From assembly GCA_022448525.1 (NCBI GenBank), contig JAKVCX010000004.1, forward strand, positions 687,403-751,402: 64,000 bases of DNA. The letters are read 5' to 3'. This document shows positions 3,841-64,000 of this stretch, piece by piece. The translations under genes and the position numbers were made by a program. A model generated the notes under the pieces. The model ran no database searches and was not told where the DNA came from. It worked only from the letters and a program-made list of their open reading frames with translations. Positions within the stretch are counted from its first letter, which is position 1. Each line of letters starts with the position of its first letter. The stretch comes from Tenacibaculum sp. Lineage in GTDB: Bacteria > Bacteroidota > Bacteroidia > Flavobacteriales > Flavobacteriaceae.

Positions 3841-4783
3841 ATAAATAAGATTTTAAGAATCCTAAACCGTAACCATAAAATTGAGTAAGTGTCGTTATAA
3901 TACTCAAATAAGCAACTTTAATACTTTTGTTTTGTAGTAAAGAATCTAAAAACAAAACTGCAAAATACAGGACATAACATATTAAAAATTGCCAATAACC
4001 AAATAAAGCCAATATCAAAAACACATCTATTCCTAAGATAAAAACACTTGGAAACCAATAGGTAATTTTCTTTGTACTTGGAAATCTTCTATTTAATTGT
4101 GGTCGTGCAGTTCCAAAAGAAAAGGTTTGTTTAAAAAATTGTTTGATACTTGTTCTTCGCTTGTGATACACATAAGCATCAGAAATTAATTGGGTTTCGT
4201 AGTCTTCTCTCCATAATCGGAACGATAAATCGATGTCCTCTCCTACTTTGTAATGATTGAATCCTTTTGTTTTTTCGAAAGCTTTTTTGGAAATTCCCAT
4301 ATTGAAACTTCTTGGTTGAAATTTTCCGACACTTTTCTTTTTGCCTCGAATTCCTCCAGTCGTAAAAACAGAAGTCATAGAATAATTAATTGCCTTTTGT
4401 AAAGGAGTAAAACTCTCATGAGCTTTATCCGGTCCACCAAAAGCATCTGTAAAATTATTCAACAAAGCATATTTTACACTTCTTAAATAAGTATTTGGTA
4501 AAATAACATCAGAATCTAAAATGATGAAGTAGTTTCCTGTTGCCCTCTCCATTCCAAAATTACGGGACATTCCAGCTCCAGAATTTTCTTTATAATAGTA
4601 CTTAATGTTTAGGCTTGAAGAATACCTTTCAACCATTTCTTCCGAAGAATTATCAGAACCATCTTCCACAATTATTATTTCATACGCATCCTCAAAGTTT
4701 TGATTTGTCAAACTAAAAAGTAACTCATCAATCTCTTTTGGACGATTATAAACCGGTACAATTATGGAAAATGCTAAATTCAT
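3824..4783 (-). CDS. Family 2 glycosyltransferase, membrane-associated
   Basis: The 319-residue protein begins with a GT-A nucleotide-sugar binding fold: FSIIVPVYNRPKEIDELLFS at the N-terminus, IIVEDGS, then ILDSDVI as the DxD-like metal/nucleotide site near residue 95. It has GEDIDLSFRLW near 180, matching the ED-type acceptor/catalytic motif of GT2 enzymes. Two or three hydrophobic segments lie at about 240-305, so it is probably anchored at the inner membrane. Related enzymes act in exopolysaccharide, O-antigen or lipid glycosylation; donor and acceptor cannot be read from the sequence. It starts immediately after the stop of the DUF3050 gene and is likely co-transcribed with it. Confidence 0.88.
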   Translation of the reverse strand: MNLAFSIIVPVYNRPKEIDELLFSLTNQNFEDAYEIIIVEDGSDNSSEEMVERYSSSLNIKYYYKENSGAGMSRNFGMERATGNYFIILDSDVILPNTYLRSVKYALLNNFTDAFGGPDKAHESFTPLQKAINYSMTSVFTTGGIRGKKKSVGKFQPRSFNMGISKKAFEKTKGFNHYKVGEDIDLSFRLWREDYETQLISDAYVYHKRRTSIKQFFKQTFSFGTARPQLNRRFPSTKKITYWFPSVFILGIDVFLILALFGYWQFLICYVLYFAVLFLDSLLQNKSIKVAYLSIITTLTQFYGYGLGFLKSYLFKSSE

Positions 4784-6467: not shown

Positions 6468-6983
6468 CTATTGGTTAATTAATCTTAAGCGTTGCATTAA
6501 GGTCATTTTTCTTTTTACCCTATTTACAGACGCATATATCGAGTCTAATGTTTTGTTGTTTAATGTTTCCTGAATCGACAACTTATAATACTTATGAGCA
6601 CTCTTTAAATCTTTCTTTAATTCAAAAGCTTGTCCCATTTTGTTATAAATTGTTGATTTATCTACAACAGAACTATTTATGACCTTGTTGCCAAATGTAA
6701 TCATTTCATCATTAAGATTCATATCAATTAACAAATATGCATAATTACTATAGGCCGCATGATAATCTGGTGCGAACTTAATGGCTAATTCTAAATGTTT
6801 TTTTGCTTTTGGATAATTATTAAACTTCAAATTATATAACCATCCTAAATGATTATGAGCTCTTCCATAATCAGGAAACTCTTCCAATAAATCGTATAAT
6901 CTTTCTTTAGCCTCAACTATTTGGTTCTCCTCAATCATTTGATCTGCTTCGAAAAATAAATCTTCCGCTCTGTTATCACTCAT
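6468..6983 (-). CDS. Tetratricopeptide repeat protein
   Basis: The 171-residue protein has no signal peptide and contains about three TPR units: around 25-60 (LLEEFPDYGRAHNHLGWLYN), 60-95 (AIKFAPDYHAAYSNYAYLLI) and 110-145 (NKMGQAFELKKDLKSAHKYY). TPR solenoids mediate protein-protein contacts; the partner is unknown. It lies 6 bases downstream of recN and 18 bases upstream of fabI, so it is almost certainly co-transcribed with them. Confidence 0.85.
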   Translation of the reverse strand: MSDNRAEDLFFEADQMIEENQIVEAKERLYDLLEEFPDYGRAHNHLGWLYNLKFNNYPKAKKHLELAIKFAPDYHAAYSNYAYLLIDMNLNDEMITFGNKVINSSVVDKSTIYNKMGQAFELKKDLKSAHKYYKLSIQETLNNKTLDSIYASVNRVKRKMTLMQRLRLINQ

Positions 6984-63071: not shown

Positions 63072-63677
63072 ATGAGTATCGATTTTTTAATTTCTGTATT
63101 GAACAATATTGAAAACCCTAAAAAAGTAAATCGTATTAAAGCTTCAAATATTGTATTGAAACAACCAGAATTAATAAAACAACTGGTAGATTTAACATTT
63201 GAAGTGAACAATCCAATTTCGGTTAAAGCTAGTTGGATTTTAGAATGGATTTGTACACATCATGGAATTAACTATGTTTTACCATATTTAGATACTTTCA
63301 CAAAAGGATTATCTCATTTGCATTTTGATGGATCTCTGAGAACCTGCGCTAAAATTTGCGAACATTTAGCGAATAACTTTTCAAATAAGGAAGAAAACAA
63401 AACCAAACAGCTTCTCACCAACGATCATATCACGAGAATCATAGAAACTGGCTTTGATTGGTTAATGACTGATAAAAAAATAGCTGTAAAAGCTTATACT
63501 ATGACTACTTTATATGTATTTGGTAAATATCAAGACTGGGTTCATCCTGAGTTAGAACATATTATTAGAAGTAAAGTAATTCATGAAGGAAAAGGATGCA
63601 CGGCGCGTGGAAGAAAAGTTCTTGAACTACTTGAAAAAGATGCACAGTTGAAAAAATCAACGAATCAGAAACTCTAA
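63072..63677 (+). CDS. Helical-repeat (HEAT-like) protein of unknown function
   Basis: The 201-residue cytosolic protein is predicted all-helical: DFLISVLNNIENPKKVNRIK, LIKQLVDLTFEVNNPISVKA, SWILEWICTHHGINYVLPYL and WVHPELEHIIRSKVIHEGKG. The repeat pattern recalls HEAT/ARM repeats, and no catalytic motif is recognised. Proteins of this kind have sometimes been mislabelled as adenylosuccinate lyase, but no lyase signature is seen. It is followed 79 bases later by the GG-leader gene on the same strand. Confidence 0.72.
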   Translation: MSIDFLISVLNNIENPKKVNRIKASNIVLKQPELIKQLVDLTFEVNNPISVKASWILEWICTHHGINYVLPYLDTFTKGLSHLHFDGSLRTCAKICEHLANNFSNKEENKTKQLLTNDHITRIIETGFDWLMTDKKIAVKAYTMTTLYVFGKYQDWVHPELEHIIRSKVIHEGKGCTARGRKVLELLEKDAQLKKSTNQKL

Positions 63678-63756: not shown

Positions 63757-64000
63757 ATGTCGAAAAACTTTTTAAACTTAAACAACGTTCAAAAACTGAG
63801 TACAGAAGAACAAAAAGAAATCAGCGGAGGACATTTAAGCGGAATTGGTGATAACAATCCATATGTTTCTTTTAAATGCTACAGAAATGACTCAGGAAAA
63901 AGATTCTTTATTTCGCCAATTGACTTAAGCTCAGCTACAACTGTATGCTATCCATTTGATCCAAACTATCAATTTGACGATTCAATCTCTGATCCTTTAG
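63757..64000 (+). CDS. Small double-glycine leader protein, candidate bacteriocin-like exported peptide (cut by the right window edge)
   Basis: The frame opens at ATG 63757 and is still open at the last base (81 residues visible). The N-terminal 25 residues end in Gly24-Gly25 and contain LNLNNVQKLSTEEQKEISGG (6-25), the Bacteroidota form of the double-glycine leader cleaved by C39-peptidase ABC transporters. The core that follows has two cysteines (Cys41, Cys64) framing KCYRNDSGKRFF and SSATTVCYPFDP. No transporter or modifying enzyme is in view; any such genes would lie beyond the edge. Function (antimicrobial, signal or other) is inferred from the leader only. Confidence 0.72.
   Translation, partial: MSKNFLNLNNVQKLSTEEQKEISGGHLSGIGDNNPYVSFKCYRNDSGKRFFISPIDLSSATTVCYPFDPNYQFDDSISDPL

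Follow-up and report, generated by a model that had tools for sequence, protein, structure and literature searches.

A short open reading frame, cut off by the right edge of a stretch of Tenacibaculum DNA, raised the question of whether it marks the start of a peptide-export locus and, if not, how its product would leave the cell. The window, by which we mean the whole stretch of 64,000 nucleotides that was analyzed, corresponds to positions 687403-751402 of contig C14 in a genome of 3.9 Mb (19 contigs, 99.83% complete). The reading frame, here called GG peptide 1 for its double-glycine (GG) leader, lies at window positions 63757..64000 on the + strand and runs past the window edge. Based on the window alone, the first-pass annotation had proposed a Bacteroidota-type GG leader and had expected further precursor copies, a C39-peptidase ABC transporter with an HlyD-like protein, or tailoring enzymes in the sequence beyond. 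All of these were sought in the stretch L008, in which positions equal window positions minus 60000, and precursors and C39 transporters also in the genome as a whole.

The window gene and its leader

Read to its stop at window-equivalent position 64017 (L008 3757-4017), the complete gene encodes 86 aa, of which residues 1-25 form the leader (MSKNFLNLNNVQKLSTEEQKEISGG) and residues 26-86 a core of 61 residues with two cysteines 23 residues apart; its predicted structure is poor (pLDDT 54.6). The gene is small and its homologues keep the leader, which sets it apart from a large known protein without a conserved leader, the outcome that the first-pass annotation had named as counting against its reading. 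Two of the anticipated precursor copies were indeed found beyond the window edge in L008, namely GG peptide 2 (4160-4423, + strand, 87 aa) and GG peptide 3 (6559-6819, + strand, 86 aa), and the three peptides belong to one family.

Leaders were scored with a hidden Markov model (HMM) built only from the ten precursors of an exporter locus on contig C2 (see below), with 23 residues each, one of which reads on to a later GG. GG peptides 1, 2 and 3 reached 13.0, 25.6 and 20.4 bits, GG peptide 1 being the lowest, while the best of 1000 shuffles per leader reached 9.2, 11.0 and 14.2 bits, respectively. The best of 447 start sites in the window scored 3.9 bits (355 were reported by the program), and the three lanthipeptide-type and two NHLP-type precursors of the same genome scored between -1.8 and 0.2 bits. 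Scoring above all its shuffles and the background, the leader on the window-edge reading frame is real, and its resemblance to the exporter's leaders is not chance. Judged by sequence, the three peptides share the leader type of the C2 exporter's own precursors. Genome-wide, the leader search returned 23 places at E < 1e-4. Ten belong to the exporter locus, eleven are further complete precursors, and two are truncated copies identical to each other; across the 21 precursors the median identity was 57% for leaders and 25% for cores. The truncated copies (L151, G000:C1:132742; L152, C13:5785) represent the same GG-leader gene on two contigs, identical over the printed stretch. Leader residues 10-25 also align with NF047798 (leader_Chryseo, "bacteriocin-like protein"), an 18-position leader-only model; GG peptide 1 scores 16.4 bits against it, below the cut-off of 23.5, and GG peptides 2 and 3 are unmatched.

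An exporter locus on another contig

No C39 place was found in L008, which extends to 16 kb past the gene, near the slot that holds the three peptides. Over the same distance, no transporter, HlyD or tailoring enzyme (LanM, radical SAM or other) was recognized by eye among the open reading frames. The expected C39 transporter and HlyD are present elsewhere in the genome. Four C39 places were detected in total, two of which adjoin each other on contig C2 (L010) and not on C14. The window gene is therefore not the start of an export locus; with the exporter on C2 and the gene on C14, it occupies a satellite precursor site. Of the other two C39 places, one lies in L011 and one in L009. L011 (G000:C14:222000-241999) reads as a class I lanthipeptide cluster with three near-identical 52-aa precursors, two LanC-like proteins, a LanB-like protein, a flavin-type oxidoreductase and a C39 transporter. 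L009 (G000:C17:262000-281999) reads as NHLP type and encodes two export ATPases and a split LanB-like pair, together with two precursors with VAGG leader ends. Both class labels were assigned by reading the open reading frames, with the transporter domains confirmed by Pfam.

The C2 locus encodes a 535-aa protein in which a C39-like domain is fused to VKOR and thioredoxin, a 728-aa C39 ABC transporter and an HlyD protein. Ten GG precursors lie nearby, with leaders that read roughly MKKSILNLGK..QK.I.GG, and no tailoring enzyme, ATP-grasp and SPASM enzymes included, was recognized by eye in L010. The N-terminus of the transporter has DCGPTC, NHY and DPAHG stretches, which correspond to the catalytic motifs of the C39 peptidase. 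In the fusion protein PF07884 and PF13462 score over cut-off, and all six redox cysteines (VKOR 196, 205, 272 and 275; thioredoxin 390 and 393) are kept in 31/31 homologues, our own protein excluded. The match of its C39-like domain to PF03412 begins only at profile position 22, and the DCGPTC of the transporter falls earlier; as aligned, the domain is without the catalytic segment. It has no cysteine in our own protein, and 18/31 relatives carry cysteines in it (17 have one, one has two), mostly at the position of residue 70 and, so far as can be judged from the alignment, outside the catalytic segment. On this count we dropped the description of the domain as cysteine-free, which had come from 14 usable rows (query included) out of 30 loci.

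The layout of VKOR fusion, C39 transporter, HlyD and 3-16 GG precursors recurred in 16/16 loci read (our own, 13 genus loci and 2 loci from other genera), all picked from VKOR-positive genomes. A C39 motif scan was positive in 19/30 short VKOR stretches, and longer stretches show the transporter in 16/16. Across the 13 other genus loci (L211-L223) the ABC transporter is unusually conserved, with 90-98% identity to our own, compared to 55-86% for the VKOR fusion and 68-89% for HlyD.

Export of GG peptides through C39 transporters is of a known kind. Class II bacteriocins, class II microcins and pneumococcal GG peptides all carry GG leaders and leave through peptidase-containing ABC transporters. 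The present system shares with them the GG leader, the C39 ABC transporter with HlyD, the short cores and the presence of several precursors per genome, but differs in the VKOR-thioredoxin/C39-like fusion, in the nearly always even number of cysteines and in having many precursors far from the exporter. In prochlorosins, a single modifying enzyme acts on many precursors with a common leader. Prochlorosins, treated in PMC6363468, resemble the present peptides in their conserved leader, divergent cores, shared machinery and GG cleavage; their thioether rings are made by ProcM, whereas the present leader was not seen together with a lanthionine enzyme and its cores are predicted to carry disulfides. 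PMC4555120 describes VKOR-thioredoxin disulfide enzymes that, like the fusion, combine VKOR and a C-terminal thioredoxin-like domain, with four VKOR cysteines and a thioredoxin CxxC. The N-terminal C39-like domain and the linkage to a GG-peptide exporter are additional here, and a term search of the main text of that paper gave no match to C39, peptidase, bacteriocin or fusion.

Cysteine counts and distribution

In our own genome, all 22 precursors have an even number of core cysteines (2-8) and cysteine-free leaders. They were hand-picked from 30 places and comprise 21 of the 23 strong places and the weaker L154 (E 0.045); left out were the two truncated copies, one repeat row, L155, L159 and L160 (without a precursor reading frame) and the weak L156 and L158. 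Among 191 leader-selected reading frames in 210 loci, 185 had an even, non-zero count, 6 an odd count and 0 were without cysteines. When the leader ended in GG by the model, 176/182 were even, and the remaining 9 were all even. Since related genomes are over-represented, a count by core cluster is fairer than one by reading frame: 90/96 clusters were all even, 4 all odd and 2 mixed. At 3-8 cysteines, even counts were found in 146/152 leader-selected cores versus 87/188 control reading frames of at least 150 aa (Fisher 7e-26), and 181/282 controls were even when 2-8 cysteines were allowed. Two other controls were dropped, namely all reading frames (0.84 even), a set that included the GG reading frames themselves, and 50-aa windows with at least two cysteines (206 even, 34 odd), a choice that favors two cysteines. 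Odd counts were found in 6/160 precursors at the 16 exporter loci. Even counts in nearly all cores are consistent with predicted disulfides.

Among 166 genomes of the genus, 35 match the peptide alignment (many in the leader only), 48 match the VKOR fusion (some as fragments) and 33 match both. A VKOR-fusion match was thus present in 33/35 peptide-positive genomes versus 15/131 others (Fisher 7e-21, uncorrected for ancestry), the two exceptions being G129, which is 67% complete, and G149. In 397 genomes of the family, searched with at most 14 candidates scored per genome, 25 match the larger peptide alignment, 22 of them outside the genus. Outside the genus, the VKOR fusion was matched in 19/22 peptide-positive genomes versus 33/372 others (Fisher 8e-16, likewise not corrected for ancestry); the exceptions G193, G234 and G427 are mainly leader matches. 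More generally, matches outside the genus lie mainly in the leader and, unlike those in the genus, all stop short of the model's end, which indicates that the leader and the exporter are widespread and the core family is not, as far as seen. Among genomes with an intact slot, VKOR is present in 22/24 with peptides versus 9/13 without (p 0.16). It hardly separates carriers there, and part of the genus-wide association therefore reflects shared ancestry. An alignment of 33 family peptides has two invariant cysteines, which in most peptides enclose an S..D or S..N stretch, although the peptides were selected by a model containing the cysteines and their invariance is thus not independent. Wherever the source gives a name, peptide matches come from Tenacibaculum, to which the genus is accordingly assigned. 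The window peptide belongs to a two-cysteine family of which full-length members were seen in this genus alone.

A variable slot and the possible role of its peptides

The three peptides sit in a slot whose left border is F7 (window 63072..63677, + strand), a conserved 201-aa protein, and whose right border is the convergent F3 (L008 6850-7692, - strand), of the fatty-acid-hydroxylase family; what lies between the borders varies among species. Neighboring genes read as mnmA and argS. Pfam gives no match over cut-off for F7; PADLOC matches its residues 94-189 weakly and in part to HamB (E 7.1e-6), which probably reflects a shared helical-repeat likeness. In 37 stretches with both flanks, drawn from 49 that had been chosen for carrying the peptide, the lipoprotein or adjacent flanks, 24 slots hold at least one GG peptide, 9 only other genes and 4 are empty, with gaps of 20-37 bp in these 4/37. 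Among the other cargo are a PF00144 serine hydrolase and an LRR-type protein. Recombination between the flanking sequences may move the slot cargo. About 7 kb past the slot, a lone GG precursor with four core cysteines was also noted (L008 13606-13800, - strand, 64 aa), a near-identical copy of which is found in L074 412-606.

Between GG peptides 2 and 3, the slot carries two lipoproteins, lipoprotein 1 (L008 4509-5456, + strand, 315 aa) and lipoprotein 2 (L008 5476-6438, + strand, 320 aa), which are tandem paralogues with 55% identity. Over L008 4509-6438, the last ~110 residues of both are nearly identical and the preceding parts divergent, a pattern that partial duplication or gene conversion might produce. 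PADLOC assigns the lipoproteins to no family, and no NCBIfam or Pfam family was found over cut-off for the peptides or lipoproteins submitted. Fold comparison returned lipocalin-like and ExbD/TolR (residues 116-208) rows amid many of similar Z, and for this reason no fold is firmly claimed. A family peptide is present in 9/19 lipoprotein stretches, and lipoproteins also occur alone. One genome, G067, carries four slot lipoproteins of two subtypes in tandem (L075 7088-11026), and one lipoprotein match is labeled Polaribacter in the source.

A hairpin followed by a T run can be read 3' of each of the three peptides. The terminator scan gave 6 sites versus a mean of 0.8 in shuffles, among them one on this strand for each of peptides 1 and 3 and one on the other strand for peptide 2. 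Hairpins after each peptide fit separate short transcripts. A sigma-70 scan showed no excess (18 sites versus 18.1 in shuffles). A shared promoter regulon was considered and rejected: with up to 3 mismatches allowed, the sequence preceding peptides 2 and 3 has two occurrences in the genome, and no wider regulon is thus visible. Against orthologues in G045 and G067, GG peptide 1 has a dN/dS of 0.07 and 0.04; over 8 orthologue comparisons of the three slot peptides, 2 of them for GG peptide 1, values range from 0.04 to 0.20 and the frame is kept. These are accordingly constrained coding genes under purifying selection, which does not look like an arms race.

In the explanation we favor, the window gene would encode a precursor from which a small secreted peptide, held together by one disulfide, is made. 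The C39 domain of the C2-locus transporter would cut after Gly25, and the core would leave through the ABC transporter and HlyD, with a putative outer-membrane channel. The VKOR fusion would hold the leader by its C39-like domain, so that VKOR and thioredoxin oxidize the cysteines of the core as it is exported. Once mature, the 61-residue peptide would act extracellularly, its most likely targets being competing relatives, with the slot lipoproteins protecting the producer and the slot exchanging its cargo between species. We consider it likely that the window gene is a satellite precursor of a disulfide-coupled GG-peptide exporter that serves it in trans, and export through the C39 transporter is about equally probable. 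An antibacterial role of the peptide is put at a little under an even chance, and the lipoproteins may confer immunity.

The alternative that holds up best accepts export as proposed and takes the peptides for signals, protease inhibitors or factors in host or prey interaction, with the lipoproteins as unrelated cargo. Purifying selection on the peptides, the lack of any bacteriocin family over cut-off, the lipoproteins seen without peptides and other cargo such as the PF00144 serine hydrolase all speak for it. On the other hand, genomes carry several divergent paralogues, the slot is variable and includes empty alleles, and a lipoprotein is encoded next door; these features resemble competition loci, none of them decisively, and we regard this alternative as a serious possibility that we nonetheless doubt. 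It is quite unlikely that the gene encodes a RiPP precursor of the graspetide, SPASM-modified or lanthipeptide kind that is modified by a tailoring enzyme from another locus. Precursors matching PF14406, TIGR04139 and TIGR04149 belong to ATP-grasp or SPASM loci of Bacteroidota (PMC8939145), and share with the slot peptides their phylum and a GG leader. The window leader weakly resembles PF14406 Bacteroid_pep (13.6 bits, E 0.087), one homologue, P0033, is labeled "Peptide modification target (TIGR041.." in the source, and the genome carries the lanthipeptide- and NHLP-type-reading clusters. However, the PF14406 score is far under the cut-off of 25, NCBIfam returned no TIGR04139 or TIGR04149 match, P0033 included, and neither an ATP-grasp/SPASM nor any other tailoring enzyme was recognized at the slot or the exporter locus. 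The even cysteine counts fit disulfides instead, and the lanthipeptide- and NHLP-type precursors are unmatched by the leader model. That the leader is a chance or decayed resemblance on a gene that is not exported is very improbable, since the leader, although it scores lowest of the three, outscores every one of its shuffles as well as the background, and orthologue dN/dS is 0.04-0.07.

Returning to the satellite precursor and its exporter in trans, no counterpart with the VKOR/C39-like fusion, the even-cysteine rule, the in-trans service and the variable slot was found in the literature searched, mostly outside subscription journals, and no paper joining VKOR with C39 was among the matches listed. 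A broader, and as a whole unlikely, generalization would be disulfide-coupled type I secretion across Flavobacteriaceae. A protease-dead C39 domain on VKOR-thioredoxin would hold GG leaders while cores are oxidized during C39 export. Many satellite precursors would be served in trans, some of them in a cargo-exchanging slot, where two-cysteine peptides would be paired with lipocalin/ExbD-like lipoproteins that give immunity by an action on Ton-type uptake. If the satellite-precursor reading is right, it would account for the short GG genes found dispersed in Flavobacteriaceae with no transporter beside them, as clients of one disulfide-coupled exporter. The even-cysteine rule would offer a simple genome-mining filter for disulfide-bearing secreted peptides, and the slot a natural allele series, empty alleles included, for probing peptide and lipoprotein function. 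Finally, the fused C39-like domain without a catalytic segment would provide a clear, testable claim on leader-guided disulfide formation.
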